Shown: piece by piece, positions 11,201-62,964 of the stretch | Position numbering within the stretch: the stretch's first letter is position 1 | Layout of the letters: every line of letters begins with the position of its first letter | Assembly: GCA_963681505.1 (NCBI GenBank) | Contig: OY811980.1 | Coordinates: forward strand, 5,459,004 to 5,523,003 | Length of the DNA: 64,000 bases | Direction: 5' to 3' | Source: Eunapius fragilis | Lineage: Eukaryota; Porifera; Demospongiae; Spongillida; Spongillidae | Position numbers and translations under genes: made by a program | Notes under the pieces: model-generated | What the model was told of the DNA's origin: nothing | Seen by the model: the letters and a program-made list of their open reading frames with translations, nothing else | Databases searched by the model: none

Positions 11201-14200
11201 ACGTATAGCTACCAAACGCTTCCGCGCTTCGCGCGAGAGGGGGCATACAGTGGCGGTTTGCTTGAGCGAAAAGTAACAGCTCGCTAGATCGAAAAAATAA
11301 TTATATTCATCCGAAAAAAACAAACTGTTGGTGTACTTAGCAACCCTACCTGTGGTATGACAACGCCCCTTCTAAATGAAATTCACTGTTATTCGTGGCT
11401 TTGCTGTTATGCAACGTTTCGCAATCCGCCCCTTTTCATTTCCTACTACGCGCCACACCTACCTGCACCTCTTGCTATATGTCATGCCTCTTTCTAGCCA
11501 GAATAAGAGCTTCAACCTTGCTTTGTTACCTTGGTGGAGATGTGCAACGTGTTAGTTTGTCAATGAGCACGCAAACAGTGTATGAAGAAGAGTGATGCAT
11601 GCATGATCTGCTATGGAAAATGTGTATGGTATGATACACAGGTTGCTGCAGCATTACATGTGCTTTATCCCTAGGACAGCTTTGCCCCACCATTCCTACA
11701 AAGAACACAGATCAATTGCATTTAGATCACTGGCTCATTGAGGCAGGTAGACATTGCGGACAAATGTCTGTGGAGTAGGGCAGGCGAGGCTAACTGCCGT
11801 TGGGATTAAGCTGCGTGCAATGCTGCTTGGTTTGCACGTGTAAGAACCATACACACTTTTCCATAGCTGACCATACACACTTGTCCCTAACTCTACATGT
11901 ATACATGCTACACTGTATCATGTACCACTACCACTTGTGTATGATATGATGAAAATAGGCTAGCATATATATACCATGCCATCGTATTTGCGTAAACCAT
12001 GCCACTTACTTCCCCTCTCGGGCCTTATTCATGGCTCCTGAAACACACAACGGTTTTCTAGCTCCAATAAAGGTCCTAATGGAACGAAACCATTCGCCTT
12101 TAGCGGGATACTTAGCTCTGCTGGACCCTTAGGTAACGCACACGAACAGGAACACTTACGTGGATAAAGAGGTTGTTTCATGGCGTTGTAAATTGGCTAG
12201 TAGATGTTCATAGCCAGATAACAACAAAGCGCACGCATGGTGCGCATCAAAACTAATACACGCCTTCTTTCACCAATGCTATGCCAATGGATACCCTTAG
12301 CAACAGTTGAACACATCAACTTGTGAAGTGTTCTCTAGAGATGCTGCTAATATTTTTGTTATGATTAATTACACTGAGAATTACAGAGGACATTTAAAAA
12401 TAAGGAAGTGAACTGCAGAGGTACAAATTGCATTCAAACCACTCAATCCTACTGTGTAGAGCCAAATGTTGCCAAGCGATTGCATGTCTCTCTTGCAAAG
12501 TTCATGATAGGAACATCACTCAGCTTAGCACCAATAGTATGCAACTCTTGCAAAATGGGTACAACACGCTGCAAAACGGCAATTTTTTCAATGGGCTGAC
12601 GTTCACCTGCATCTGGTTCATCATCTTCTTCATTTTCATCATTATTCATCCCTGCACACTCTTCCAATTGAATCCATTCAATCAGCAAGTTGGAAGCCAA
12701 ATCCTGTAATTCATGGGTCTGTTCCATCACGCTGTCCAAGCCAGTGCTACTTAGCATATGGGCTACAGCAGGGTCACCAGGCTGCAAAGTTGACAAAACA
12801 CTACTCATCTGCTGTACAGCACTCTGTTTAATTCGTGAAATATGGTCTTCACTGCTTGTGCTACCTGTATCTTGAGTGGCTAGACATTTGGAATGCTTCC
12901 AACACGCTTCAATTGCTTCACTCTGGATGTTATCCCAGGACTCCTTTATTAGTTCTGCAGCATCTCTCACATGAGGAGCACAACCATACTCCAAACCAGC
13001 ATGTCCAGATGGTAAATGTTTTGCCATTTGTTGCAGGCTCTCATATGTTGGAACAGTGCTGACAAGTTTAGTAAGTAACTTATACTTGTATCCCGTCTTG
13101 AATGATGCTATAATCCCTTGATCTAGGGTGGAGGATTGTTTTTAAAACAACGGGGTTGTTTATTACTTCCGATGAAAACTGGGCTAATCTTGCATGTTCC
13201 AAGAGCATTAACGCAAAGGATTACCGTCAATCTATCCTTAGCTTTCATTGCTTTCACACCTCTTCCTGCTTGTCTCTTATCAATATGACCAATCTCATAT
13301 GTTCTGCTTGGAATTGCTTTGTAAAATAAACCTGTTTCGTCCATGTTGAAGATATTTGAATGCTTGTATCCTTTAGCAACAATCTGTCTTCTAAGATCTT
13401 CCATTTGTTCTTCAGCTACTTTCAAATCAACTTCCGCAGCTTCACCATGGAGACGAACAGAATTGGATACATTATAGCGCGAACGCCATCTCCACACCCA
13501 TCCATCAGAAGCTTTAAAATCTGTAATGCCTCTATTTGTAGCCTCTAACGCCGCTCGAGCTTTAATCATCATTTTGGACACTGGAAGTGGCCTGCAGGAA
13601 CCAACAAATGAACGTATGGAGCAAAACCAATGAAAGACAGCTGTGTCGATCTCAGGGAATTTTCCTTTGGTAGCAATTACTTTACGATACAATGGGGCAT
13701 TATTCTTTACTCGGCTTTCTAGTTCATCTTTGTTTTTTAAAATACGATACGCTTGAGTCTGTCCAATTCCAAAATGCTGAGCAATATCTGCTACGGGTCG
13801 ACCACCTTTGAATTCTTTCACTACCTCCATCTTCTCCTTCATGTCAAGAAACATTTTCTTTTTTTTAGTCGCCATCTTCAAATTCAACAATCCAAATACA
13901 GGCCCACGAAAATGCAAAATCAACAATTCGTTGAAGAAGTTCAGCAGTCACAGTGTTCAACAAAAAAGTAAGCAGCATCTCTAGAGAACACTTCACAAGT
14001 TGATGTGTTCAACTGTTGCTAAGGGTATCCATTGGCATAGCATTGGTGAAAGAAGGCGTATATTAGTTTTGATGCGCACCACGCATGTGCTTTGTTGTTA
14101 TCTGGCTATGAACATCTACTAGCCAATTTACAACGCCATGAAACAACCTCCGTAAGTGTTCCTATTCGTGTGCGTTACCTAAGGGTCCAGCAGAGCTAAG

Positions 14201-29591: not shown

Positions 29592-30667
29592 ATGTCTGAA
29601 GAGGACACAGATAGCGATGCTACAACTTGTGACACCAACTGGTGAATGATCAGTGCACACATAACGAGAGAAATCCACGCAAAACCGCACATTTCTGTAG
29701 GTCTACTGAGCTTGCGAACGAAGCAGGCGACTCGCATGATGTAGGATTATCGCAACCACGTGCCACAGGGTTCCTCCATTTGAAACAAACAGACGCGTCC
29801 AATTCCTGCGCAGGTGTGCTATGTAATAGATGTGTTAACGTCCTCAAGTTCCATTTAAAACTCGTCTCACCTCCCTCGCCAACTCCTCCCATCTCAACCG
29901 CTTACGTCTTTACAATTTACGCTTCTTTGAAGCCTTACAGCTTTTATGCTAGTTCTCTATGTTCAGGCTACAGGTATTCTGAGAGACCAAAGTTTCCCTA
30001 CACTGCTGGCTGCAAGAAGATAGACTTTGTGCTATCATCTAGTGAAGTATCCCCACCTGTTAAGGTAAGGGAGGGAAGAAGAGAAAGGGAAGGAGGGAGG
30101 GAAGGGTGGAGGGAAGAGAGAGGGAAGGAGGAGGGAGGGAGGAAGAGGGAAGGAAGGGAAGAGGGAGGGAAAGAAGAGGGGAGAAGGGAGGGAGGGAAGA
30201 GGGAAGGAGGGAGGGGTGTGACCACCTATAGTCACCTGGGGATCCCCACCTATGGTCACCTTGAGAGTGGTCACCACCTATGGTCACCTTGAGAGTGGTC
30301 ACCACCTTTGGTCACCTTGAGAGTGGTCACCACCTTTGGTCACCTTGAGAGTGGTCACCACCTTTGGTCACCTTGAGGGTGGTCACCACCTATGGTCACC
30401 TTGAGATTGGTCACCACCTATGGTCACCTTGAGAGTGGTCACCACCTATGGTCACCTTGAGATTGGTCACCACCTATGGTCACCTTGAGATTGGTCACCA
30501 CCTATGGTCACCTTGAGATTGGTCACCACCTATGGTCACCTTGAGATTGGTCACCACCTATGGTCACCTTGAGAGTGGTCACCACCTATGGTCACCTGAG
30601 GACCACCACCTAAGTATTGAGTTATAATTGCTTGCGTTTTAGATAAAATGATCAGGTGGATGTGTGT

Positions 30668-30724
<57 letters not shown>

Positions 30725-33700
30725 TGTGTGTGTGTGTTTTTTTGCAGAGGGAGGGTGAGGTGGATAGGGTGAAGAGGGAGGATCTCACTTGTGGGGATAT
30801 TTGTCCACAGGGGTACACCCTTTGAGATACCAAAGTCCATACTGGTGTGTCCTTCTCTTTTACCAAGGTCCCAGCCTCCATAAATCAGTACCTTCGAACC
30901 TACCAGCGTGATGGGGTACAGTTTTTGTACAACCAGTTCAAAAAAAACTGTGGATCAGTGTTGTGTGACGAATCTGGACTGGGAAAGAAAGTTCAGGTAC
31001 GTTGGGTAGGTCTGGGCGAGAGGGTACACGACATAAGGTGGGTCTGGGCAAGTGAAACATAAGGTGGGTCTGGGCAAGAGGACACACAACATAAGATGGG
31101 TCTGGGCAAGAGGACGCACAACATAAGGTGGGCCTGTGCAAGAGGACCCACAACAGATGTGACATTCCCTTCAGGAGAATAAGGTCACAAGTAACAAGCA
31201 CCGTAACTAAGGCTGTGTGCGTAACTAAGGCTGTGTGCCATAATATACGTTGTTATGCTTGCTTTTATTTTATGTGACGAAACTGTAAAACCTCAATTGT
31301 GGAAAGATGTTGCGTTGGCTTCCATTTGCCTGCATGGTAATATCTTTCTCTTAATAGAGTGCACCTTTGGTGTAATGTTGAACACAACGCTGTCATTGAC
31401 CCTTAATTCATATTGTATGAGCGCACAGACCTGCTTGTATGTAGCAGTACGTGTGTGAGCCACAGACCTGCTTGTATGAAGCAGTACGTGTGTGAGCACA
31501 CAGACCTGCTTACATGTAGCAGTATGTGTGTGAGCCACAGACCTGCTTGTATGAAGCAGTATGTGTGTGAGCCACAGACCTGCTTGTATGAAGCAGTACG
31601 TGTGTGAGCACACAGACCTGCTTACATGTAGCAGTATGTGTGTGAGCCACAGACCTGCTTGTATGTAGCAGTATGTGTGTGAGCACACAGACCTGCTTGT
31701 ATGTAGCAGTACGTGTGTGAGCGCTTGCATGTAGCAGTACGTGTGTGAACCACAGACCTGCTTGTATGTAGCAGTACGTGTGTGAGCACACAGACTTGCT
31801 CACAGATGTTTGAGTGCTTAGACCTGCTCACCTCATTACCTGTTAGACCACCTTCAAGCAGCAAACTTGCATGCACTTGAGTATAGAGTAGGTTAATGCC
31901 ATCTGAAGTATGAATATATTCATGCAATCAGCAGCTGCTGACAGACCATATGGATACCATTCCCTTCAAGCAGTACTTCAGGACTGCAATATGTCACCTT
32001 GCTTCAGCTTTTCTGTTGATTTTTGAGGTGGGAGCTTTTACAACCTACGATGTAATGGTTCTGAGTTCATCATATCAAGGTTTAAGTGTGACAGAGACCT
32101 GCCTTTGATTATATGAGACCTTTGAGCGAGGATCAGACCTGTTGTTATGATGTCATGTGTCAGGTGCCCTGTGAGGAGTGGGGGTAGTCCTTTCAACTGT
32201 TATATATTTTTATCATGCTGGTATTCAGAGAAAGGAAGAGGAGAGTAGAGGAAGAGGGTAGAGGGGCGGAGGGTAGAGGGGAGGAGGGTAGAAGGTAGGA
32301 GGAGGGTAGAAGGTAGGAGGAGGGTAGAGGGGAGGAGGGTTGAGGGGAGGAGGGTAGAAGGGAGGAGGAGGGTAGAGGGGAGGGGAATGGTAGAGGGGAG
32401 GAGGAGGGTAGAAGGGAGGAGGAGGGTAGAGGGGAGGAGGAGGGTAGAGGGGAGGAGGAGGGTAGAGGAGATGAGGAGGGTAGAGGAGATGATGGTAGAG
32501 GGAGGAGGTAGAGGGGAGGAGGAGGGTAGAGGGTAGAGGGGAGGAGGAAGGTGTCTTTTCTATGATCTAAAACTTGTCAATTATCTTCCAGTTCAAAGCA
32601 TCATGATTTATGTACTCAGCCTATGTCCTGTGGGTACCCTCCTTTGATATGCTGTTGTGTTTACATGTGCTCAGCTGCTGCCATGTCTCCATCAGGTGAT
32701 TGCCTTCCTAAGTGCTGTTCTTGGGAGAGTGGGACCCGGAGATAAAGCTAACGCTTCTATGACCCACCACCAGGTTTACAAGGATAAGGTACACTGAGTG
32801 TGTTTTTTGGGTTATTAGGTGTTGTGGTGATTAGGTGTTGTGGTAATTAGGTGTTGTGGTGATTAGGTGTTGTGTTGATTAGGTGTTGTGTTGATTAGGT
32901 GTTGTGGGGATTAGGTGCTGTGGTGACAAGTAACTAAAAACATTCTCTCTGAGAAAGTTGGTGAGATAAGGCAATGGTGGTGTAAAAAGCAAGGAAACAA
33001 GGGTCTGTAATAGTAAGGGAAAATGTCATAGTCCTGTATTTAGCCCGTTTGTAGCATATACTATGTTCGTGTGCTAAATACAGGACTATGACATTTTCCC
33101 TTACTATTACAGACCCTTGCTTTTTACACCACCATTGCCTTCAAATCCTATATTTCACCAACTTTCTCATAGAGAATCTTTTTAGTTATTTTAGTTATTT
33201 GTTTCATAGATATCTAATTATACGTCTTACACTGACCGAATAGTTGATTGTAAATCATTTGCTACTGCTCCTGTAGTTTTCTGGTTTGGTATCAATTCTA
33301 AACTTGTCAAGATTCTGCCTTGTAATGATACGAGTAGCGTTTAGTATGGCCCAAATATAACAATACAATTACCAAATATACAATCGACTATTTGATCACA
33401 GTAGGTACTCCTCCAGCCAATTCTGAAGCTATTGGTGAAATTTCCATTCTTTAATTAAATGTGTTCCTATCCCAAGTTATGTGTGGTCAAGAAGAAGAAG
33501 AAGGAAAAGGAGGAGGAGGATAATTCCGGGACTGGGTACGAGGACGGGCAGTACCCTTTTGTTCTCTACAACCGCGCGGTTTTGCGACATAAAACATACG
33601 ACGAAATTACTCACTTTCGTCTTCTCATTCGATTACAACAACTAGCTAAACGATCCGATTGTCAGGAGTCTTCTTGTTATAAACGGCTCGCGTTGTGGTG

Positions 33701-36700
33701 ATTAGGCTTTGTGGTGATTAGATGTTGTGATTAGGTGTTGTGGTGATTAGGTGTTGTGGTGATTAGGCGATGTGGTGATTAAGTGTTGTGATAATCACCA
33801 TGCCTATACATTTGCACTCACTATGTGTACACATATATATGTGCTTCATATGCCATACAGTTGTGACGTACATATGTTCATTTCATCTAGCTGTCTTGCA
33901 CTGGAGCTGCTCTCATAGTTTGCCCAGCCTCCGTCATAGATTGCTGGGTCAGTGAGCTGGAAACATGGAGCCACTTGAGCCATGCGTATGTCTCCATGTG
34001 TGTGTTAGAATATTTGAAGTTACAAGGTGTAATCAGATCTGTCATGTTTTGCATGTGATGGTGATGTAATGGAAATGTGCGTCTACAATGCTTATGTGCC
34101 ATGCGCTTGAACTTCAATTCATTCGTCCTAGTATCTATACCGGTGCCAATGCAAAGTCCGCCAGTGATGCTGACACCTTGGGAAGAGGAGTTCGTATGAA
34201 TGAAAAGGCACCTGATGTTGTGTTGGTGGCATACGACACAGCAGTGGCACACATGGTGAGGCCTTTGCGTAACGGTTCAGAGTTGATTGCAACTGCCACC
34301 ATTGGTTCAGATGGCGATATATCATGGGCTGTGTGAATTGTTGAGGGGACTGCTTGCATCATATGGCAACGTTGTCAATCATTTTTTAATGACATATATG
34401 TTATGTGTGTGTTCATAGGGGAAGCATGCGGATCCATGGCAATGTGTTGCTTTGATGGGACTGCCTATAGGGTACAGTACACATTACGCATTTACAACTT
34501 CTCTCAAAATTTTGGCCAGGGTGATCTTAATTCGGTGGGTTGGTTGGCTGTGGTGTGTGATGACCTCATCTCTGGGGATTGTGATGTTCAAATGACTGTG
34601 TTTCTGGACTCGCTGAAGGTTAAGAGGAGGTATGTGGTTTATGGATCCAGCAAGGGAAGGTGTGATGAAGGGAGAGATGGTGTGATGAAGGGAGGGATGG
34701 TGTGATGAAGGGAGAGATGGTGTAATGAAGGGAGGGATGGTAAGGGGAGAGATGGTGTGATGAAGGGAGGGATGGTGTGATGAAGGGAGGGATGGTGTGA
34801 TGAAGGGAGGGATGGTGTGATGAAGGGAGGGATGGTGTGATGAAGGGAGGGATGGTGTGATGAAGGGAGGGATGGTGTGATGAAGGAGGGATGGTGTGAT
34901 GAAGGGAGGGATGGACTGGTGGAAGGAGGGATGGTAAGGGGAGAGATGGTAGGACGAAGGGAGGGATGGTGTGATGAAGGGAGGGATAGGACGGGGATGA
35001 TGGAAAGCTTTGTAACTCAATGACCCATTAAATTGAAACACAAAAGTATGTTTTACTTGTATATTCAGCCTACTGATTGTAAGAATAACCATTACAAGTG
35101 AGACCATGCAGATACAAGGTAGTGATTTCAAACGGAACGACAATTTTTCTTCTTATCCAACACAGAAGCTGTACAGAAAATTAGTAATATTATCTTTTTT
35201 TGTCTTTTATAGAAACCAGCCAAGATTAAAGTTTAGTGCAATGATGCCAAAAATCTGAACCTGTAGTATACCAGTAGTCTTATGACTTTGTTTTAAAATC
35301 TATTATTTCCAGCTAAATAAATAGTAAGTCATAATTATGAATTGCATTGCTGTTCTTTTTTGGAATTCTTGTGCATTGCATACTGCTGCTGAGTAGCTGC
35401 TGAATATTTTTGGTTATAATGACCGCAAACAGCTATTTTTGCCGTTTGTTAATAGAACATAATGTGCATGTGTTGTATTACACGTACCCTTATTATGCTC
35501 TGTTCCATCATTCTCCTCCCCTCCTCTCCTTGCCGTACCCTCCCCTCACCTTCCCACCATACCCTCCCCTCACCTTCCCACCATACCCTCCTCTTCTCAC
35601 ATACACCTTCCCTCACCTTCCCACCATACCCTCCTCTCACCTTCCCACCATACCCTCCTCTTCTCACATACACCTTCTCTCGCCTTCCCACCATACACCT
35701 CTCCTTTCCACCCTCCTTCTCCTCCCACCCCACCATTCCCCTTCTTCCCCCTCCCCACACCACCCCTCTTTTCTCCTCACTACACACCATTCCTTTCTGT
35801 AACCACCTCACATGCCAAGATGTCGTTGGGTGTGCACTACCATTGGGGGAAGAGGAGTAAGACATGTTGCATCATCATGAATGTGTGAATCATATCATTA
35901 TGTGGCTGCATGATTAAGGTCATATGACCCTGAGATGTGATCCATTGAGACATGATGAGATCTAAGCTGATCACATAGCATTATAACCTGTACTGGCAGC
36001 ATTATAACCTGTACTGGCAGCATTATAACCTGTACTGGCAGCATTATAACCTGTACTGGCAGCATTATAACCTGTACTGGCAGCATTATAACCTGTACTG
36101 GCAGCATTATAACCTGTACTGGCAGCATTATAACCTGTACTGGTAGCATTATAACCTGTACTGGCAGCATTATAACCTGTACTGGCAGCATTATAACCTG
36201 TACTGGCAGCATTATAACCTGTACTGGCAGCATTATAACCTGTACTGGTAGCATTATAACCTGTACTGGCAGCATTATAACCTGTACTGGCAGCATTATA
36301 ACCTGTACTGGCAGCATTATAACCTGTACTGGTAGCATTATAACCTGTACTGGCAGCATTATAACCTGTACTGGCAGCATTATAACCTGTACTGGCAGCA
36401 TTATAACCTGTACTGGCAGCATTATAACCTGTACTGGTAGCATTATAACCTGTACTGGCAGCATTATAACCTGTACTGGTAGCATTATAACCTGTACTGG
36501 CAGCATTATAGCCTGTACTGGCAGCATTATAACCTGTACTGGCAGCATTATAACCTGTACTGGCAGCATTATAACCTGTACTGGTAGCATTATAACCTGT
36601 ACTGGTAGCATTATAATGCACCAAGGCAAAACTTGCCAAAAGTGTTATTTCAAGTTTTTAAGCTCATGAGCATAGCAACCAAATATGTGTCTGTACTTTA

Positions 36701-39700
36701 TTATTAGCCTGCTATTGTAATAAAAATGCATTTTCAATAGTATTGAGTCAAGTTGAGCAGTTGATTTTGGACCTTTATCAAAGAAAAGCCTCTGTAATTC
36801 TATCGTGTCACCTGTCAACTTTATAATTAAATTGCTTCAGACTATCATCTGCTCAACTTCCCTAACCCTATGGTTAGTACTATATAAAAGTCTGAAATCA
36901 TTGTGACATTTTAAAAGTAGCATTGCATGCAATTTGACAAGCCTTGGTGCACCTTACCAGCAGCATTATTACCTGTCATGTGATTGGTGCACCTTACCAG
37001 CAGCATTATTACCTGTCATGTGATTGGTGCACCTTACCAGCAGCATTATTACCTGTCATGTGATTGGTGCACCTTACTAACAGCATTATTACCTGTCATG
37101 TGATTGGTGCACCTTACCAGCAGCATTATTACCTGTCTTGTGATTGGTGCACCTTACTAGCAGCATTATTACCTGTCTTGTGATTGGTGCACCTTACCAG
37201 CAGTATTATTACCTGTCATGTGATTGGTGCACCTTACCAGCAGCATTATTACCTGTCATGTGATTGGTGCACCTTACTAACAGCATTATTACCTGTCATG
37301 TGATTGGTGCACCTTACCAGCAGCATTATTACCTGTCTTGTGATGGGTGCACCTTACCAGCAGTATTATTACCTGTCATGTGATTGGTGCACCTTACCAG
37401 CAGCATTGTTACCTGTCATGTGATTGGTGCACCTTACTAGCAGCATTATTACCTGTCTTGTGATTGGTGCACCTTACCAGCAGTATTATTACCTGTCATG
37501 TGATTGGTGCACCTTACCAGCAGTATTATTACCTGTCTTGTGATTGGTGCACCTTACCAGCAGTATTATTACCTGTCATGTGATTGGTGCACCTTACCAG
37601 CAGTATTATTACCTGTCATGTGATTGGTGCACCTTACCAGCAGCATTGTTACCTGTCATGTGATTGGTGCACCTTACTAACAGCATTATTACCTGTCATG
37701 TGATTGGTGCACCTTACTAGCAGCATTATTACCTGTCATGTGATTAATTGTGGTCTAGTGACATGATTTTCCTCCTTCCTTGCTGTACTTGACCAGGATT
37801 GCTCTCTTCAACCCTACTATTGAGATACGGTTTACAGAGTTATGGAGTTTGTTCAAATGGTAAGATACTGTTGCAGAGGGCTAATAATGTGTGCTATTGA
37901 GACAGTCTGCCTATACATGTACATGTTTGGGTAAGGCCACACCCCACTGATGCCTATACATGTACATGTTTGGGTAAGGCCACACCCCACTGATGTCTAT
38001 ACACGTACATGTTTGGGTAAGGCCACACCCATGTTTGGTAAGGCACTAGAACAGCAGTAATATTTACAAGTCAGAAGAGAACATGCTGGATGTGTGAAGT
38101 GAAGTGAAGCAGGTCATAAAATATGGAAGATACAAATAAAGATATTCAAAGTGAAATGTCAGCATTCAGTTTCTGAATAGGCCAATTGTTGCATGCAAAG
38201 ATGTGTCCTAAAGTGAATGAGAATGTTTTCTACAATTCCTTGCATCTCTTGATGCCCCCCCTCCTTTGTTTAGGATGAATCCTAGTGGCCTGGGCACCCT
38301 GCAGTGCTTTCAATCAGCATTTGAGCAGTCCATTTCAGGGCAGCGAAACCTCTGTGGCCACGATGAAAGGGAGACTAGCAGAGGACGTGGAAGTAAGTGC
38401 ATGCCCAGCATTGCACCATACCGATGGTGCTCATTATTCAGAGTTGGCTGAGTTAAAGGAAGTGGTGGAGTCCTGCGTGTTAGGTAGAGCACGCGCCACA
38501 CTCAGTTCCCAATTGCCAACGAGAGGTAACTCAATATACAGGTGCATAATTTTTTTTGCCTAAGGTGACCATTGGATTGTCCCATGTCGTACCCCTAAAC
38601 CACACCCACTGCAGGAGACTACACCGTCCTCTGCCCTCCCTCGGAGCTGCAGGGTAGCATCTACCAGAGTATTGTTGAGTGCGATGATGTCCAGCTTATC
38701 TTGAGCAGCGGGGAAGCGTGCGACTGCTACAGTGGCAATGACAGAGGAGAGTGTTGCTATAAGGTGAGGCTACAGTGGCAATGACAGAGGAGAGTGTTGC
38801 TATAAGGTGAGGGGCAATGACAGAGGAGAGTGTTGCTATAAGGTGAGGCTACAGTGGCAATGACAGAGGAGATGTTGCTATAAGGTGAGGCTACAGTGGC
38901 AATGACAGAGGAGATGTTGCTATAAGGTGTGCATATGAGAGACCAAACATTTATGGCGACCATACACTAGGCAACAATGTTGCATGCAACTTGATGAATC
39001 CAATTGTATTTGCAGTAAGACATTGGTTTACGGATATTTTGCTAAAATTCATACCATTGTGCGCACAACATGTTGCCTAGTGTACAGGTGTATGTTGGGC
39101 TTAAGAAATTCAATAATAATAACTCATATAATTGTTATACTAATTAACTTTTTGTGTGGTAGGGTGTGGCATGCCTTGTAAGGGGTGTGGGTTTGGTACC
39201 GCCATGCTTATGCATGACAGGACCGAGTTCTTTTTGTTTTCTGCCTGTTCTTGCACACCCTTACAAGGCAGTACCACACCCATTACCTGATGATTCGTTT
39301 TGTCATCAACGTGATGGTATGAGTAATATCACTGCAGTGCTATGCATGGTATTATAGCATTTGAAATATTTTCACTGCAAGGTCTTCTGACTCCCTGCAG
39401 AGGAATAGTGAAGGAATCAGTTGGAACTCGCTTGTGGTGGAGTACATGACACTGCTCACCAAGTGTGCCAACCACGTAGGTCTGCTACTCCCAGCCACGT
39501 CTTCAAGCCGCAGGCACGGGGACAAGGTGAAGGCACTGCACCACCATCTCACAACAACACCCTACCCGTTAGGCTGTATTTATCTTCAGCTGTTTTCACA
39601 CTGTCTCTGTCAGCATTCATATGATTTGCTGTTACTGGTGGTATCTTTACAGACTGCCAGGATCTGCTGTGACATTTTCTCAAAGCACTCGCAATTTTTA

Positions 39701-39888
39701 GCAACCACCCATGATGCCTCATTTTTAACGCTGTCTGACCCTCTGTACTGCGGAAAGATGCAAGTATGAGGTTCCGTTTTGTGTGGGGTTTGTACTGATA
39801 ATATTCTATCAAGGCTGTTGAGAAGCTCCTATCAAAGTTCAAGGGGGAACATGCCAAAGTAGTTCTCTATTGCAATTCTGTGCAAGTA

Positions 39889-39987
<99 letters not shown>

Positions 39988-42097
39988 ACGCACGCAGGAC
40001 AATCTATGGTCCTTTGAACTTTGTTCTCTCCTTTGCTATACCAGCTTCTAAATGTTCTGGAGGACTTCCTAGTTTGCAAGGGCTACATGTACTGCCGACT
40101 AGATGGAATCAACAACAAGGCTTATGACACACTCAAGGCATTCAATTCTGATCCTGATCTGTTTGCCATTCTTATCTCAAGGAAGTATGTACACTTACTG
40201 CCTTTTGACCTGTTGATGTATTGTGGTTATGGCTGTGTTTTTTCAGGTGTGAAGGGATGTCCCTGAATATCACCGGTGCCAGTCGTGTCATCATATTTGA
40301 CCCAAACTATGACCTATTAGCACAAGTGCAATCAGAAGAGAGGTAGGTGGCTGCTTCAAAAACGAATGACTGGAGTATTCTGGATGAACACATGTATGTA
40401 AATCTTGGACTTCTACAATACAACCATCTGTGCACTAGGTCCTTGTGCTTACATTAACACCCAAAACAAGTTATGAGGCGCACTGATTTTGTTTAGTTAG
40501 TCAGAATATGGAAAGTTGGGATAATTTGTGGGCTGGCATTTTCTTAGATGCTATCACACGTATAATTAATACATGGGTGTTATTTTGAGTCTTAAATATT
40601 GATTTTCGTATAATTGAGTTCAATGCTTATTCAAAAGAATTTAATTATATGCACAGAAATGCGTAGACAAAAATGCTTAGTAGGATTATTATTCATGTGT
40701 AAATAAATCTGCTTGTCAACATTGTATGTGTGTGTGTGTGTGTGCGTGTGCGTGCGTAAAAAGATTCTTCAAGTTAGGTCGAAGTCGAGATGTTATTGTG
40801 TACCGTTTGCTTGCTGAGGGAACCATTGAAGAAGCTTTGTACATCAGGGAGAACCACAAGGAGGTACTTCATCCTGCTGCTTGTATTTTCATTGCAACCA
40901 AAGCTTTCGCAACAAACTTTACTTACTAGACAAGTTGCCACAAATGGCTGCATTTTGACCCATGCGAAGTACAATAATAACATGAATTCGAAACTTAAAA
41001 TTTTGTTCTCTTTTCTTATGTATAAGTTTGAGATAATTTAGTGCCACTTTAGGGCCATGATGCGGTCATCGCTTCAAGGTCATTTTTTAGTACAGGAGAG
41101 TGCACACCCCAGCATGATTAAACCCTGGCTGGCTAGTTGATTGCTGTCTTTATACATAGTTTGCAGATTGCATGATTGGAACTGCAGATAGTAGTTTATT
41201 GGTTGCCTTGGCAACATACCTTATTGGGTTAGTATGTGTATGATTTAATCATTAAGATAATATTGTCAATGTTCTCCATTTCGCATCATTAATATCTGAA
41301 CTAAGTGCAATCCAGTTATGAATGTTAAAAACGTTTCTTGCATTTGGCAGTGTGTATGGAAGCCAAGGCAGTACAACATATCTGATGTGGATCACGTGAA
41401 GAATCAGAGGTATTTCAATACCTCACCACGCAGTGGCAAGAAAACTTCGGATTTTGCAAATATTTTTCTTTTCCGAAAATCAAACCTACACACAACTGTG
41501 GATTGTCTATCAGAGGTAAGTATATTATTATAGGACGTCTTGGGATCAAATTAAGCATATGGGAACTCAGATGATGTCATCAAGTGCTGTACATGTGCAT
41601 TACACAAATTGTGATGGTGAAAGAGGGCATAATCAGGATATGTCTGGCACCAATCATAGGCATGAGTAGTAAAGTAACATGCAGTGTGAGTCCTCCACAA
41701 AGGATCCAACTATTGGCAGTTAAAATTAATGTGAGTCTTACTAATTGTATTGCAGGCGAAACATTTAAATCTCATGGAAGGTTCCCTGAAGCTTATTCAT
41801 GAGTGAGTATGTTATGACTTCATTGGTGTGTACAATACACTCTCCCATACCAGGTCTGTGATTGATACAAACACCTCCAGTGGAGCTCACATGCCATTTA
41901 GAGGTAATATTTGTTCCATTCTCCTACACTGATTGATTTTGAGCCAACTTATTAATGTGAAAAATATTTTGTGCATGTCCTTACAAACAGTTCGTATTTT
42001 AGAAAGTTGTCTCTTGTATGACCAGCTACTCTGTACAATTAAGCATGTACTACGAAGATGTTCTTTTATTTGTGGGTTTTGCACAAGAGCTATTTTG

Positions 42098-42138
<41 letters not shown>

Positions 42139-43544
42139 GTGTGTGTGTGTATGTGTGTGTGTGTGTGTGCGTGTGCGCCTAAATTTATCAATAAACTTGT
42201 AACTCATAAGTGATTCGATTTTTGGGGCAAACATTTCAACTTTAATATTGAAATATTTAGTCATGCATATACCTCCCAAAGTCCCATGTTTGTACTGCTT
42301 TACAGTGCCTTGAAGTAGGAAACTGTACAAGTTGGGACCTAGCTTAATAAGATCTTTCTCATATCCACTTCAGGTGCCTCAGACTTTGTCAGTTACTGTG
42401 TGAAAATTGCTCTGGAGGCTAATAACCTGGTCCCTATTGGTACAGCGGATCATCCCAGCAGCACCGATGACCATTCCCATCAGCAATACATCAAGGTACA
42501 GGATTTAGCCTTACATGTAGTACCTGCATCATAAACTGGACTTACTTTGTTCAGGGCAACAATAAATGCAGTGACTTGGGCTACTGTTCAGCAGGGTCCA
42601 GGGAAGTGCTGGCAGTACCATTAGAAGCAACATGCAAATTGGACTCTGGAATGAGTGCTTCAACTGCTGAAGGTGAGGCAAGTATTGCCAGTACCAAAGC
42701 TTATAGATCAGCACCATTCACCAAAACGATAATCCCAGTGTCCAGTGATGAGTCTAGTCGAGGGAAAGAATTTCTTGACACAGGTCACAACAGTTCCACA
42801 ACAGAGCATAATGGCACTGGTAGTGGGTGTGGCAGTACTGGGCTGTCAGAACCTGATTCACTGATACTAGAGAACGCCAGCAAAAGTAAGAAACCTGTTC
42901 CATATAGCTCACATCGATGTTCAACCACGAGGATTGAAAAGGAGCAGTTACCCTATACTGATGATAATACATTGGATTTGGACAGTCAGCTAGTTATGTC
43001 CAGTACACACAGTCCTGTGGCATCAAGTCCTGTGATTGGCCCTTTGTCCAGGCATGCTCTGGAACCAAAACATTTCCCAGTTCTGTCTGAGGCAGTGGAG
43101 GCATTGTGTGATGATAGTAGCGTGGTGTGTGACGAACAGTCCACCCAGGGAACGGTGTCCACATTTCTACCCTCACCTCACAGTTTGCTGTCACAAGGAA
43201 GTTTGGCATCTCCAGCAGAACAGGAGAGGTTGGATCTCTCCCCTTCGCCAGGGATCCTTCAACCACGGCTTGCATGTCGATTCATCACTGCTGCAGAGAA
43301 GTCTCCACCAGGATTGTTTAAAGCTCTGTACGGCTCTTCACCTCTTATTGATGAATTACTTCAGAGCAGTGAAACGTCCTCGCCATCCTGTGCCAGTACT
43401 GCTGCAGAATTCTCAGAGGATCCTCCATCTTCCAAGAGGAAGTTTGATGGCTCATACAGAATTGAGGAGCCCAGTCCTTTTTGTGGGGCTACGACTACTT
43501 GCACACTTCCGCGAAGTGATATTGATGTGCTGTTTGAACTGTAG
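29592..43544 (+). CDS. ERCC6L2-like SNF2 protein with degenerate ATPase motifs, 22 exons, about 1,041 aa
   Basis: Exons: 29592-29641, 29974-30064, 30868-30996, 32696-32788, 33891-33985, 34132-34255, 34520-34629, 37797-37859, 38274-38392, 38442-38525, 38615-38763, 39401-39526, 39653-39763, 39814-39885, 40045-40184, 40247-40342, 40764-40863, 41351-41515, 41756-41802, 41854-41903, 42374-42495 and 42555-43544. All are GT-AG with matching phases; the total of 3,126 nt is a multiple of three. The order matches ERCC6L2, a nuclear DNA-repair SNF2 family: INQYLRTYQRDGVQFLY, VCPASVIDCWVSELETW, the cysteine segment CDCYSGNDRGECCYK, TLSDPLYCGKM, YCRLDG, FDPNYD, RSRDVIVYRLLAEGTIEEALY, RYF...FANIFLFR, and a disordered 330-residue tail with GLFKALYGSSPLIDELL. 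ATPase residues are replaced: GLGKK for GLGKT (84-88), DDLI for DEAH (208-211), LFNP for LTGT (234-237), and motif VI QSEERFFKLGR (547-557). The N-terminal Tudor region of vertebrate ERCC6L2 is absent. Exon 1 is the least certain. Confidence 0.88.
30225..30608. repeat. 28-bp minisatellite in intron 2 of the ERCC6L2-like gene
   Basis: About 13 copies of GGTCACCACCTATGGTCACC plus TTGAGAGT, with T/A and G variants. It is preceded by an AGGGAGGGA purine tract at 30065-30215. A (TG)n tract follows at about 30659-30738. Confidence 0.95.
31425..31800. repeat. About 35-38-bp minisatellite in intron 3 of the ERCC6L2-like gene
   Basis: Ten or so copies of a unit with CACAGACCTGCTTGTATG, then (T/A)AGCAGTACGTGTGTGAGC. 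Alternate units are joined by CACA or CCA. It lies upstream of a GGAGGAGGGTAGAGG purine repeat at about 32225-32555. Confidence 0.93.
32225..32555. repeat. Purine-rich repeat (GGAGGAGGGTAGAGG)n in intron 3
   Basis: About 330 bp with almost no pyrimidines on the plus strand except the T of GGGTAGA. It could form triplex DNA. Confidence 0.93.
32810..33795. repeat. 16-bp minisatellite (ATTAGGTGTTGTGGTG)n split by inserted elements
   Basis: Copies of the 16-bp unit occur at 32810-32925 and resume at 33690-33790 with the same period. About 765 bp of unrelated DNA sits between them. Inside is a near-perfect hairpin (arms about 32932-33043 and 33072-33190, loop about 28 bp). After it comes a fragment (33480-33690) that is an inverted copy of the 5' part of the basic repeat-protein element at 8370. 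GTGGTG-type sequence abuts both ends. The minisatellite therefore existed before the insertion. Confidence 0.85.
32932..33190. mobile_element. Hairpin MITE-like element in intron 4 of the ERCC6L2-like gene
   Basis: The left arm runs AAGTAACTAAAAA to GTATTTAGC. The right arm runs GCTAAATACAGG to TTTTTAGTTATTT. The arms are inverted copies of about 115 bp with few mismatches, including TAGTAAGGGAAAATGTCATA and its complement. No coding sequence is present. It would fold into a long stem in the pre-mRNA. Confidence 0.85.
34650..35000. repeat. 21-bp minisatellite (GATGGTGTGATGAAGGGAGG)n, intron 7
   Basis: About 15 copies starting 20 bp after the exon 7 donor. A second strongly strand-biased tract (CCTTCCCACCATACCCTCC)n lies at about 35510-35790 in the same intron. 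Confidence 0.94.
35979..36614. repeat. 21-bp minisatellite (CATTATAACCTGTACTGGCA)n, intron 7
   Basis: About 30 copies of a 21-bp unit, very uniform except for a G/A alternation in GGCAG/GGTAG. Because 21 is a multiple of 3, two minus frames stay open with 7-residue periods; these are not genes. Confidence 0.97.
36944..37745. repeat. 40-bp minisatellite, intron 7
   Basis: Twenty copies of a 40-bp unit with GGTGCACCTTACCAGCAGCA, then TTATTACCTGTCATGTGATT. Variants (CTAA/CTAG/CCAG, CATG/CTTG, GCATT/GTATT) form blocks. It shares the core CAGCATTAT(T/A)ACCTGT with the 21-bp array 330 bp upstream. It ends about 50 bp before exon 8. Confidence 0.97.
38722..38930. repeat. Minisatellite that copies the exon 11 end and its splice donor
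   Basis: A 36-52-bp unit, CTACAGTGGCAATGACAGAG, then GAGA(GT)GTTGCTATAAGGTGAGG, is present about five times. The first copy is the real 3' end of exon 11 (YSGNDRGECCYK, donor GTGAGG at 38764). The downstream copies keep an apparent donor at about 38808, 38846, 38886 and 38926; two or three copies have lost two bases (GAGATG for GAGAGTG). Confidence 0.92.
39888..39988. repeat. (TG)n microsatellites near exons 14, 17 and 21
   Basis: A 100-bp perfect TG run follows the exon 14 donor by only a few bases. Similar runs lie at about 40727-40757, directly against the exon 17 acceptor, and at about 42098-42175 in intron 20. Confidence 0.95.
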
Positions 43545-55308: not shown

Positions 55309-56859
55309 TCACTGGCTGGTGCCATAGATTTCATACAAAGCAGTCATGATGGCTTGAATGCGTTTACAGCACAGTTCCTCCTGGTTGCAAACATCAACTA
55401 TTGGCTTTGGGTAGTCCACACCAATGATGCAGCCTGCTTCCTGCTGGAGGTACAGGGGAGCCTTCCACGGCTGGTGGATGTATTCAGCAGGAAAGCTCTG
55501 GAGCTCTGGTACATAGGTCTTGATGTACTGGCCATCCATGTCCATCTGCTTGCCTATCACACAAGGATTGTAGCCCTCCACCTGGTTACAGAAGAACCCA
55601 CTGCAAGAGCTCTGCATCCAGCACACAGAGGACAGAGGTTGCTGAAAGTCCAACATAAACTCCTGGAAAAACTCCTTCCCCAACACCCAGGACAGCCACA
55701 AGTAGCCTCGTGTCTGAAAGACGGCAATGCTCTGACGGCCCAAGAAGTGTGCCCAACCTTCTTGGCGACACTGGCGAATGACTGCATCAATCCAAGGGAA
55801 GCCAGTCCGACCTTGGCGCCATGCTTCAAGGTACTCTGGATTATCATCCCAGGGAAGCTGTATACATAATGGATTGCCATGCATCTGGTCAAAGTTTGGG
55901 GTGAAGTATCCCATAAGGAAAGCAAACTCTCTAAGAAGAAGGTTTTTGGTCAACTCCTCGAACAATGCTTGTCCCTTCAGGGATATGGAAGCAAATTGCT
56001 TGATATGGCTGAACAGCTGACGCACAGAGAGACATCCAAACCGAATGTAAGGACTGAGGGAGTCCGTGTTCGTCAGCCATTCAATGGGATCACCTGACAG
56101 AGAGGCACGGTGAGAGCAGAATTTGGACAGCCTGTTCAGAGCTTCGGTTTCCCCGCCCACCCAGTGATTGGTGTACAACTTTTCACTTGGTCCAAACCCA
56201 AGACTCTGCAGGGTTGGTATCTCACCTTCGGCTTCATCCTTGCTATTCAAGATCTCACTGGACATCAAAACAGAAATTGTATCTGGTTCTGGAATGGGTT
56301 CTTGGGGACATCCTATTATTGGCAGCAGTCGACGAAATTCCTTGTACGAGCCAGGTAACCGCCCATTGTTACAGGAGAGAACGTCATTAGGATTGTACAG
56401 TGTGTGAGAATAGAAGGGAACAGCCTCTATGCCGTGTTCTGTCGCGATACGTTGGATAACCCTGTCGTGTTCCTTCGACTCGTAGCTAATTTGTGAAGCC
56501 TCAAAAGTGAGCCTTTGCACGTTCCACTTACGGTAAACTTCGGGCAAGACGGCTGTTGGTTGACCAAGGAACACGTTGAGACGAGTCTGATACGGTTTCT
56601 TCTGGAGTTTGCTATCCAGATCGCGGAGAGATTCGATAAGGAAACGCCACACGTTGACGGACGGCCCGTTCTTATAATTTACGTTGAACCACGGGTCTAC
56701 GATGAAAATGGCCTTGAATCTTAGTCCGCTGGTGACCGCGCAGTTGAGAGCTGGGTTGTCGTTTAGGCGGAGAGAACCAATGCGGAACCAATTTACGACG
56801 ATAGCCGGGTTTTCAGACGGCTGCTGCTGCAAACCTTGCGTTGGAACAGCAAACGACAT
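55309..56859 (-). CDS. Animal-type cryptochrome/photolyase-family protein, 516 aa, intronless
   Basis: One uninterrupted frame with the usual family length. The N-terminal photolyase domain starts VVNWFRIGSLRLNDNPAL at residue 21. The FAD-binding domain spans about 230-500, with LLLREFAFLMG (307), RTGFPWIDAVIRQCRQEGWA (351), TRGYLWLSW (383), PAEYIHQPWKAP (457) and GVDYPKP (480). It groups by eye with (6-4) photolyases and animal cryptochromes, which bind FAD and act as blue-light sensors, clock repressors or repair enzymes. Several key sites differ. The photolyase HHLARH carries Phe372 and Gln376 in place of the two catalytic histidines. DADWSINAGSW reads DFQQPLSSVCW (404-414), so the Asn facing flavin N5 is Ser410. 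Trp388, Trp391 and Trp414 of the electron-transfer chain are kept. It is likely not a repair enzyme; a light-sensing role is inference. The tail after the core is very short. Confidence 0.93.
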   Translation of the reverse strand: MSFAVPTQGLQQQPSENPAIVVNWFRIGSLRLNDNPALNCAVTSGLRFKAIFIVDPWFNVNYKNGPSVNVWRFLIESLRDLDSKLQKKPYQTRLNVFLGQPTAVLPEVYRKWNVQRLTFEASQISYESKEHDRVIQRIATEHGIEAVPFYSHTLYNPNDVLSCNNGRLPGSYKEFRRLLPIIGCPQEPIPEPDTISVLMSSEILNSKDEAEGEIPTLQSLGFGPSEKLYTNHWVGGETEALNRLSKFCSHRASLSGDPIEWLTNTDSLSPYIRFGCLSVRQLFSHIKQFASISLKGQALFEELTKNLLLREFAFLMGYFTPNFDQMHGNPLCIQLPWDDNPEYLEAWRQGRTGFPWIDAVIRQCRQEGWAHFLGRQSIAVFQTRGYLWLSWVLGKEFFQEFMLDFQQPLSSVCWMQSSCSGFFCNQVEGYNPCVIGKQMDMDGQYIKTYVPELQSFPAEYIHQPWKAPLYLQQEAGCIIGVDYPKPIVDVCNQEELCCKRIQAIMTALYEIYGTSQ

Positions 56860-57011
56860 TTTTATAATACAACGCTTCTGAAACGGGATGCTAAGAATGT
56901 GGAATGAACAGTGTGTTAATTTATATTAGTACACATCGTTCGCCGGGAAATATCCAAGGATTTCCATATCTGCTAGGATACTCCGAATTTACACCCAATG
57001 TATGGTATCAC
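56860..57011. promoter_or_regulatory. Probable cryptochrome promoter region
   Basis: Only about 145 bp separate the cryptochrome start from the target duplication of the inverted-repeat element upstream. The element copies carry CACGTG (about 57045, in ATCACGTGCA) and TCACGTG (about 57306 and 58814), which match E-box or ATCACGTG-type sites. No functional claim can be made from sequence alone. Confidence 0.35.
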
Positions 57012-60382: not shown

Positions 60383-62964
60383 CAGGGCCGTAGCATCGAA
60401 AAACAAACCGGTCCGGCCACTGTGAAAATAGGAAATGCAGAGGAAGCCCCAGGGAGGGTGCGGGAGGGGAGCACCCCTCCCGCCCAGCAAGGGGGTATGG
60501 GGGAACGCTGGAAGCTCCCCCATCGAGGTCTGGGGCAACGCTTTTTGACACGAAAAACTACGCGTGCGTCACATGTAAACACTATTGCCGTTAGTTTACT
60601 TATATCTCATCACAAGTGATCATTCATTAATATACTATGGGACATAGTACGTCATTCATGCATGCACATCATCAAAACTTCAAATCTACGTCTCGCGAGC
60701 TGACGAAGTCATTCAAGCAAGAGACGATGGATAAACCATCTGTCCTATCCTTGTGGGCATGAAGAACACACAAGTTGTTTACACGCATTTGTGACATGCT
60801 TGTACGAAGGTAAGTTTTCACCCTGCATGCGTAACACTGATGCACTGCGCTCACTTATCGCATTGGTCGCTGGTATCACTAGGATAAGCTTGAGCAAGAT
60901 GCAGACTTCAGAGATGCCTATGCGTGTGGCTGGTGAAAGGCCAGTGATATAAGCTCTGATTGTGCTAAGAGTCGGTTTTTCAGGCAAGGAGGAGAACATC
61001 GCTGGCAGCAATTCAAGCTGTGTTCAAGACTTGATGCTACAAAGTCATTATGGTAGTGCTTCAAAACAAAATCAAGCTCTGAGCGGTACTCTTCTCTTCT
61101 TGCTGCCTTCAACAAAAGACACTCCAACTGTTTTAGGACTCCATAACCTGGTTGGTTGAATCTCTCTCTAATTGCACTGATAATAAAATCCAGACATTCA
61201 TAATACTCTTGGCAATAGCGGTCTTTGGCTGTGCTATGTTGGTAGCCCTGACTAGATCCAATTTCTAAACGGCTAGGAGCTCTTCTTTTTCTAGGCAGTG
61301 AGGCCTCCTCTACATCATACTTCCTTTGAAAAGACAGCACCCTTTCCCAAAATAGGTCAAATGATTCTGATGATCTTATGCTGCTGAGAGTTGCACAAGT
61401 AAGCTCTGCACATTGCTGACCTTCAGATGCTGTTAAGGTTGGATCTTGTAGAGTTTTGCTTAGATTATCAGTGTGTTTTAGTATACGTTCACCAAGCAGC
61501 AAACCAAAAAGGAAATTAAAGTTCCTCATTGTTGCTTCCACTCCTATAACTCGAGCTTTTATCTCTGAGTCAGTGATATCATCCTTGATCTCTTCCCATA
61601 AGACCTGGAATACCTCATAATTGTCAAGTATGCTCTGCAATGATGCTGCACGGACAGTCCACCTAGTTGGACACAAGGTACGAAAGCCTGATGTAGATGG
61701 TGCCAGCTCATCCTTCAGCCGATTGAAAATTGCATCGCGCTTCGGAGAGTACTTTAAAAGCTTTGATATCTCAAAAGCTGCATCGAGGGTGTCTCGGAGG
61801 ATTTTATTCTTTTTTATCGAATCACTGGCTGCGAGGTTTAATGCGTGTCCATAACAGTGAGTATACGTAGCCCTGGACTCCACTGATAATATCTGTGCTG
61901 CCACTCCACTTCTGTGTCCAGCCATATTAGCAGCCCCATCGTAGCATTGACCTCTACAATTTGCAATAGACAAATTCATTCGTATCATCGTGTCTTTGAG
62001 GATGTGAACAATTCGATCACTCTCAATAGACTCTACCACATAAAGTCCAATGAACTCTTCACTGCAATTGAAATTATCATCTACGCTTCGGAAACAAATG
62101 GCAACTTGCGTTTGATTGGCAGCGTCTGTCACTTCGTCTGCCATTAAGGTAAAGAACCTGGCATTTTGGATTGAAGAAGCAATATCCCTTACCACATTTA
62201 ACGCCATGATAGTAATGATTTCGTTCTGGATTTCAGGACTGGTGTACTTGTACGTTTTTCGCTCCAACCACTTAAGCAATTCAGGTTGGTGAATGGCTCT
62301 AAGCTTGATAAGTTGCATGAAATTGCACTCCTTTTCGTCATCATCCCCACGCAAAGCTATACCTTGCTTGGCCAAAAATCGTAAAATTTTCGGCTATAGT
62401 TACAAGACACTGCCGATTTGCTGCTTTCTCATCTGCATGAGCCAATGACAGTAGCTCTCCTACATCCCGTGTTGTTTCAGGTAGAGTAACTAGGTACCAT
62501 CTCAACAGCTTTCTTATGGGTGTCCGATTTCTCATGGCTCGGGAAAGCTACTGTTGCATCCTTCCAATTACTAAATCCAGCATAAATGAAAGCTGAATCC
62601 TTGATGTTACCCGAGGTTGTGCTTAACTTTCCTGTGGTCACAGCTTTAACACAAATAAAACAAAACGCTCGATCGTGGCAGCTGTCATAGTGCAACCAGC
62701 CCCACTGTGAAAACCATTTTGGTTTGAAAGCCCGTTTTACTATGGTCTTTTTTCCGAACTCACGCATCGGAAATGGAAACCGCAGTGGTTGATTAGCCGT
62801 TTCTTCAATTGCAGGTGGCTGCACATTCATCGTCCCTCGAGTTACAAATTAAACCGGGTGAATAACCACTTTATAAATTACAATAATCGTTAATATTTTC
62901 AAATGTTCTGGCTAAAACCGGTCCGGCCAAGGCCGGACCGGCCGGACTGGATGCTACGGCCCTG
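60383..62964 (-). mobile_element. hAT-superfamily DNA transposon, decayed, 2.6 kb
   Basis: Ends CAGGGCCGTAGCATC at the left and GATGCTACGGCCCTG at the right are perfect inverted repeats. Subterminal ACCGGTCCGGCC repeats lie on both sides. A broken transposase is encoded on the minus strand. No convincing 8-bp target duplication remains (GTACATAT versus CGATATGT). CAG...CTG ends and the protein both indicate hAT. Confidence 0.88.
60660..62830 (-). pseudogene. hAT transposase (TTF zinc finger, DDE, C-terminal dimerisation), frameshifted
   Basis: 62830-62477 encodes a TTF-type zinc finger: FKPKWFSQWGWLHYD, then HDRAFCFICVKA, ending FPSHEKSDTHKKAV. A frame change leads into 62390-60918, about 485 residues of the catalytic region: FFTLMADEVTDAANQTQVAI, NCRGQCYDGAANMAG with a catalytic Asp, and THCYGHALNLA, then CPTRWTVRAASL. 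The C-terminal hAT dimerisation block is split between frames: LKLILVIPATNAISERSASV, then RVKTYLRTSMSQMRVNNL and HAHKDRTDGLS near 60740. At least three frameshifts are present. The layout matches ZMYM1-like hAT transposases. Confidence 0.85.

Follow-up and report, generated by a model that had tools for sequence, protein, structure and literature searches.

The window analysed here, a stretch of 64,000 nucleotides from the freshwater sponge Eunapius fragilis (contig OY811980.1, C10:5459004-5523003), carries on its forward strand a predicted gene (29592-43544) related to ERCC6L2 (also RAD26L or HEBO), an SNF2-family DNA translocase. The gene is read here, with a probability of about 0.7, as an ERCC6L2 orthologue that became a pseudo-ATPase in the common ancestor with Ephydatia muelleri and that is still under selection. 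An earlier reading of the same DNA (the original prediction) had proposed a conserved-fold pseudo-ATPase, which is supported by the motifs of the E. muelleri counterpart, by loss concentrated in the catalytic motifs, by losses common to both species and by a simulation of neutral decay.

Gene Model and Exons

Exon boundaries were picked from the sequence between 29,000 and 44,600 on the forward strand, guided by known features of the family and by the motif strings of the original prediction. The exons re-derived in this way again number 22 and join in phase to 3,126 nt, encoding 1,041 amino acids and a stop codon. All 21 introns are of the GT-AG type (42 splice dinucleotides intact), and neither a stop nor a frameshift occurs inside the 3,126 nt. 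The G+C content at the three codon positions is 50/45/48%, compared with 46% for the 64-kb window. In the following list, canonical residues are those of catalytic ERCC6L2 relatives, which include the sponge-like P0002 and the Amphimedon protein P0126; names beginning with Em denote E. muelleri gene models.

29592..29641, + strand: exon 1; start codon; about 17 residues, no homologue seen; the least certain exon
29974..30064, + strand: exon 2; YSERPKFPYTAG...; matches SEKPKFPYLAG of E. muelleri Em0767g2a and LDRPxF of P0002 and P0126
30868..30996, + strand: exon 3; GLGKK of motif I (30976-30990; canonical GLGKT)
32696..32788, + strand: exon 4; VIAFLSAVLG..., after motif I; missing in both E. 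muelleri models
33891..33985, + strand: exon 5; motif Ia region ALIVCPASV
34132..34255, + strand: exon 6; LVAYDTAVAH (canonical TTHETAKLH)
34520..34629, + strand: exon 7; motif II DDLI at 34559-34570 (canonical DE[AVC]H)
37797..37859, + strand: exon 8; motif III LFNP at 37804-37815 (canonical LTGT)
38274..38392, + strand: exon 9; MNPSGLGTLQCFQ...
38442..38525, + strand: exon 10; LGRARATLSSQLP (canonical LRRTxxxxxxQLP)
38615..38763, + strand: exon 11; ERCC6L2-type cysteine segment CDC...CC at 38719-38757, 4/4 cysteines kept
39401..39526, + strand: exon 12; KCANHVGLLLP
39653..39763, + strand: exon 13; TLSDPLYCGKM
39814..39885, + strand: exon 14; motif IV region KVVLYC; missing in both E. muelleri models
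40045..40184, + strand: exon 15; YCRLDG
40247..40342, + strand: exon 16; EGMSLN of motif V (40251-40268; the same in E. muelleri) and the first half of motif VI
40764..40863, + strand: exon 17; GTIEE and the rest of motif VI (RFFKLGR); a TG repeat precedes its very weak acceptor
41351..41515, + strand: exon 18; RYF block, NIFLFRKS (canonical NLFQLR)
41756..41802, + strand: exon 19; no strong homology
41854..41903, + strand: exon 20; no strong homology
42374..42495, + strand: exon 21; E. muelleri Em0011g745a seems, by eye, to start inside it
42555..43544, + strand: exon 22; C-terminal tail with DIDVLFEL at its end, conserved in E. muelleri and two more database sequences; RHH_ERCC6L2 domain not found

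The intron before exon 17 (40343-40764) ends with a TG/CG repeat followed by tgcgtaaaaag, the weakest acceptor of the gene; an alternative AG ending at 40777 would shift the frame. Several introns carry repeats. The 3' end of exon 11 and its splice donor are repeated about five times into the intron (38726-38929, period 42, 91% matches), so that competing donors may exist right behind the cysteine segment. Intron 2 holds a 28-bp minisatellite of 13.6 copies (30221-30597), and intron 7 (3,167 nt) holds two within 35977-37745, one of 21 bp in 30.5 copies (97%) and one of 40 bp in 20 copies (95%); as its length is divisible by three, the 21-bp unit keeps several frames open. Searches of Rfam and of a phage collection gave no match.

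Domains and Motif State of the Predicted Protein

Pfam recognizes both lobes of an SNF2 protein, SNF2-rel_dom (PF00176, expectation value E 1.7e-35) and Helicase_C (PF00271, E 2.6e-8). The motifs inside them read GLGKK (I), DDLI (II), LFNP (III), EGMSLN (V) and QSEERFFKLGR (VI, split over exons 16 and 17), the five substitutions that the original prediction had named and that can now be given coordinates. Its broader phrase, that every core ATPase motif is replaced, holds for the motifs and not for each residue, as the Walker A lysine K87, the first Walker B aspartate D208, Q547 and the first motif VI arginine R551 remain. Lost are T88, E209 and H211, the LTGT sequence of motif III, the two glycines of motif V and, in motif VI, the second arginine, which is now a lysine. 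In place of the Walker A GKT stands GKK in E. fragilis and GKR in E. muelleri, and in place of the Walker B DExH stand DDLI and DDLL, respectively. By contrast, in the alignment 17 ERCC6L2-type relatives (P0001-P0010, Trichoplax P0011 and the six more distant rows P0012-P0017) keep GLGKT, DE[AVC]H, LTGT, GGxGLN (GSLGLN in Trichoplax) and RxGQ.

Many residues at fold level are kept, and the landmarks outside these motifs are retained in the alignment: the CDC...CC cysteine segment with 4/4 cysteines, SDPxYCGKM, the RYF block and GTIEE. The first three had been listed in the original prediction together with a C-terminal LLxDxxLLDDL-like motif, which was not seen in that form, no dedicated search having been made. 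The C-terminal end that is shared comprises the last eight residues or so, DID[VA]LFEL compared with IDELFG[FI] in most sponge-like canonical proteins and DHLFEL in P0002. The RHH_ERCC6L2 domain (PF25806), present in P0001 and P0002, was not found in the predicted E. fragilis protein by Pfam scan. PF11496 (Hda2/Hda3) reaches 14.3 bits (E 0.023), below its cut-off of 27, and is also seen in canonical ERCC6L2. By descent the protein is ERCC6L2; as an enzyme, judged from its residues, it appears to lack what defines an ERCC6L2 ATPase and should not be classed as one.

Relatives and Phylogenetic Placement

A protein search returned 232 matches; the first eleven among the best 120 are the ERCC6L2 proteins P0001-P0010 and Trichoplax P0011, with 38-41% identity across 56-64%. 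P0001-P0010 are called sponge-like because six of them, used in the tree, group with Amphimedon. Amphimedon is likewise a demosponge, and its ERCC6L2 (P0126) is canonical, with DDMGLGKT, DEVH, LTGT and GGVGLN. The tree comprises 16 rows, part of those available, and leaves out other SNF2 families; ERCC6 itself is a separate locus on contig C11. E. fragilis and E. muelleri group together (100/100) within a clade that includes Amphimedon ERCC6L2 (100/99), in which the order of the three lines is poorly supported (60/61). The stem of the pair measures 1.23 changes per column and its tips 0.32 and 0.34, branch lengths that suggest a burst of change and then less.

The sponge-like P0001 and P0003-P0010 are each a single protein of 846-926 amino acids, and the contigs that carry P0005-P0008 range from 156 kb to 3.9 Mb. 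Their genes may be intronless in the P0005-P0008 species, compared with 21 introns here, or this may be an effect of database gene prediction.

The Ephydatia muelleri Counterpart

Besides its own gene, exon 22 finds the E. muelleri model Em0011g745a and two unnamed sequences, at 41-52% identity. A search with residues 48-468 finds Em0011g744a, numbered just ahead of Em0011g745a, at 59% identity, and also Em0767g2a. Both Em0011g744a and Em0767g2a contain DESGLGKR, GLFDP and KCEGMSLN; CDDLLSG (DDLL) is present in Em0011g744a, and that part is missing in Em0767g2a. The two are near-identical by eye in the exons they share (70% by BLASTP across gaps). No canonical E. muelleri ERCC6L2 was seen among the listed protein-search matches, a search of limited sensitivity and length range. 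The best fold matches of the AlphaFold model of the E. muelleri protein P0125 are Mot1 and CSB, with template-modelling (TM) scores of 0.43-0.46 by query; this SNF2 fold match is weak evidence, since an alignment of homologues makes such a fold expected.

Both E. muelleri helicase models lack exons 4 and 14 and end right behind exon 16, ahead of a complete motif VI. Together with the separate model Em0011g745a and the very weak exon 17 acceptor, this fits a locus with two products, namely a shortened helicase-like protein that stops after exon 16 and another from exons 21-22 (perhaps 17-22). Such an arrangement seems unlikely, since exons 17 and 18 encode recognizable ERCC6L2 sequence, in order and in frame, and exon 22 ends in a peptide that matches the C-termini of sponge-like canonical ERCC6L2 proteins. 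In addition, the E. muelleri gene models are reported to be AUGUSTUS predictions (PMC7385117), so that the absence of exons may be a matter of annotation; with the poor exon 17 acceptor, a truncated protein is conceivable.

Selection or Decay

E. fragilis keeps 75 of the 109 positions that are invariant in the 17 canonical sequences, 11/24 in the core motifs and 64/85 elsewhere (Fisher p 0.011). Loss is concentrated in the catalytic motifs. For the comparison with E. muelleri, in which exons 4, 14 and 17 onward drop out, 125 positions invariant in seven metazoan canonical sequences were used. Both species keep 85 of these and both have lost 29, with five further losses in E. fragilis only and six in E. 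muelleri only. As 29/40 losses are common to both, about three quarters of them look older than the species split. The same new residue occurs at 18 of the 29 (including E209D, T235F, T237P, Q240E, N241I, G521E, G524S and W540Y). Inside the motif blocks this is so for 8/11, the other three being K/R, I/L and N/D. Six motif blocks, chosen by the authors, agree between the species at 44/52 sites compared with 255/387 other sites (p 0.0066): I 9/10, Ia 7/9, II 6/8, III 3/5, V 12/12 and the FDPNY block 7/8.

Neutral drift was simulated without indels and splice sites, an omission that favours decay, and produced 8.0 stops per lineage at 73% identity and 10.5 at 66%; a run with zero stops was never reached in six settings of 200 runs each, and none is observed in the gene. 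The open frame, set against this simulation, and the small number of lineage-specific losses are suggestive of purifying selection on the degenerate protein. A gene in decay, that is, a unitary pseudogene still open by chance, is quite unlikely, although it would fit the long stem branch, the RHH_ERCC6L2 domain not found, the weak exon 17 acceptor, the tandem duplication of the exon 11 end and its donor, the exons skipped in the E. muelleri models and the agreement of altered residues at only 18/29. Against it stand also the 3,126 nt free of stops and frameshifts, the 42 intact splice dinucleotides and a C-terminal exon that is open in four sequences.

Search for a Canonical ERCC6L2

The original prediction had left to be checked whether a second, canonical ERCC6L2 exists in the same genome (218,937,333 bases or 219 Mb, in 24 contigs). 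The search used one protein query, Amphimedon ERCC6L2, and one Pfam query, followed by reading of SNF2 loci, and found none. The protein query gave 37 exon matches out of 65 candidates. Five lie in the E. fragilis gene; they include the N-terminal block (67% identity) and the exons that encode the cysteine segment and SDPxYCGKM. No other locus in the whole genome combines such matches. Twelve of the 37 were obtained as loci and read through, the rest being judged by their place and the part of the query matched. The E. fragilis gene scores 312 bits (45%) with this query and the next best, ERCC6/CSB, 233 bits (33%). A canonical copy at 53-58%, the identity of P0002 to sponge-like or Trichoplax proteins, should have outscored the E. 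fragilis gene.

The Pfam query gave 46 SNF2 exon matches out of 58 candidates, 45 within loci L001-L027 and the last in L029. When L001-L008 and L009-L027 (19 loci) were compared with ERCC6L2 and ERCC6, L018-L020 and L022-L024 matched neither, and none of the compared loci resembles canonical ERCC6L2. The loci returned by the protein query read, judged by family-typical sequence and not by a database result, as presumably ISWI, tandem copies of CHD1, RAD54, SMARCA, ATRX and TTF2. A search for PF25806 gave 0 matches in this genome, which means little as 14 control genomes gave none either (no positive control).

Three matches to ERCC6L2-typical parts of the protein query were judged to belong to other SNF2 genes: C10:828975 (query 232-345, 27%), C14:6272607 (384-473, 37%) and C17:850982 (16-84, 45%). 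The region C17:845000-854900 reads as presumably INO80. On C22 (1373817-1619295) lies a tandem family of at least five near-identical SNF2 copies and one on the other strand, presumably CHD1-like.

Proposed Function

The gene is probably the only ERCC6L2 of its lineage, made into a pseudo-ATPase. Lacking T88, E209, H211, LTGT, the glycines of motif V and the second arginine of motif VI, the protein would have no ATP-driven translocation cycle; nucleotide binding may persist because K87 and D208 remain. Changes of this kind usually cripple SNF2 ATPases. That the protein is an unconventional ATPase, still active through its altered motifs, is very improbable. In favour of it, the Walker A lysine persists, as do the first aspartate of Walker B and one arginine of motif VI, and the motif V block is 12/12 in E. 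muelleri. Against it, Lys or Arg stands in place of the GKT threonine, Asp in place of the catalytic glutamate and Lys in place of the second arginine, and LTGT and the glycines of motif V have been lost. In human ERCC6L2 the ATPase-site change K165R is reported to disturb localization in human cells, and the authors expect the disease change D283N to abolish ATPase activity (PMC12003248).

The pseudo-ATPase would instead act mainly through protein contacts. The two RecA-like lobes could form a static platform for partner proteins, for which the serine/proline-rich tail, itself conserved, and the terminal peptide DID[VA]LFEL are likely points of contact. Residues 48-549 carry a net charge of -5 (-3 in E. 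muelleri), compared with +4 to +22 in seven canonical cores. As the core is less basic and RHH_ERCC6L2 was not found, a protein scaffold appears likelier than a DNA clamp. The original prediction had the protein kept for binding DNA or partners; partners remain plausible, and DNA binding is doubtful with that domain not found and a net negative core.

A number of observations weigh against the pseudo-ATPase reading as set out here. The degenerate helicase core is known from two species only, and the E. fragilis gene from genomic DNA alone. Its full-length product is a prediction, given E. muelleri models without exons 4, 14 and 17 onward and given the exon 17 acceptor (tgcgtaaaaag|att), a clear outlier with a score of -7.4 compared with -1.2 to 10.9 for the other 20 acceptors. 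Em0767g2a is probably a second copy or a haplotype, since it is near-identical to Em0011g744a where exons are shared, and the AlphaFold model of P0125 is of middling quality (mean predicted local distance difference test score, pLDDT, 69.9). The long branch, flagged when E. fragilis stands alone, makes the exact place of its row in the tree unsure. The Pfam search missed the E. fragilis gene itself, so that a very divergent copy could be missed as well. K87, D208 and R551 persist, agreement between the species is modest in blocks III and II, and identical replacement at 18/29 common losses is not above the core identity of 299/439, so that the new residues as such bear no sign of special selection. 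The 618-aa Amphimedon isoform P0126 also lacks PF25806, which, like the 18/29 figure, lowers confidence. Over residues 48-625 the net charge is -1 compared with +2 to +23 in canonical proteins, a gap that nearly vanishes relative to Amphimedon (+2), and the scaffold role itself is an inference from these residues.

The balance tips slightly towards the further view that freshwater sponges are without any catalytic ERCC6L2, a single-copy translocase, and not a spare paralogue, having been converted on their stem into a conserved scaffold without motor function. If true, the end-joining or centromere work of ERCC6L2 would be dispensable in freshwater sponges, or run in an ATP-free mode.

Other Features of the Window

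Three further features lie on the reverse strand of the window.

12452-13947, - strand: two overlapping frames with Tc5-type DNA-binding and DDE_1 domains; looks like a broken transposon, presumably pogo/Tigger-like
55312-56925, - strand: uninterrupted photolyase/cryptochrome reading frame (PF00875, PF03441)
60921-62848, - strand: DUF4371 frame, preceded upstream by a weak zinc-finger-like frame; perhaps a hAT-like element

Comparison with Known Systems

Defects in human ERCC6L2 are linked to bone-marrow failure (PMC12003248), and the disturbed localization of human K165R makes an orthologue without a motor notable. A natural lineage that keeps the protein and drops the motor would separate the scaffold role of ERCC6L2 from its enzyme role, and Amphimedon (with the motor) and Ephydatia (without) would offer a comparison of which partners need the scaffold alone. 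In a limited literature collection, no paper joining ERCC6L2 with pseudo-ATPase, or SNF2 with pseudoenzyme and ATPase, was found, and those naming both ERCC6L2 and sponge concern other subjects, judged by title and the start of the abstract.

The sponge protein shares its descent with ERCC6L2, as seen in both lobes, the CxC...CC segment, SDPxYCGKM, the RYF block, the C-terminal LF peptide and the tree clade; it differs in motifs I, II, III, V and VI, and PF25806 was not found in it. Among known pseudohelicases, which include Utp25 (PMC9539457), PriA of Deinococcus radiodurans is likewise a repair motor whose helicase motifs are degenerate in one lineage and whose orthologue is still used. It is bacterial and not an SNF2 protein, and is reported to keep DNA binding (PMC4504706), which seems doubtful for the sponge protein. 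Yeast Hda2/Hda3 (PF11496) also use an SNF2-like lobe as a non-catalytic platform, but consist of the C-terminal lobe only plus a coiled coil, form a DNA-binding scaffold of a deacetylase and are not ERCC6L2 orthologues, as far as reported (PMC7062823). In Arabidopsis MOM1, a CHD3/SNF2 relative, the helicase motifs are described as dispensable and a conserved motif elsewhere does the work; MOM1 arose from CHD3 proteins that remain (PMC2507757), whereas no active ERCC6L2 was found beside the sponge gene. Three points seem new in the sponge case: ERCC6L2 is the founder, the searches found no active copy next to it, and two species have the conversion in common.

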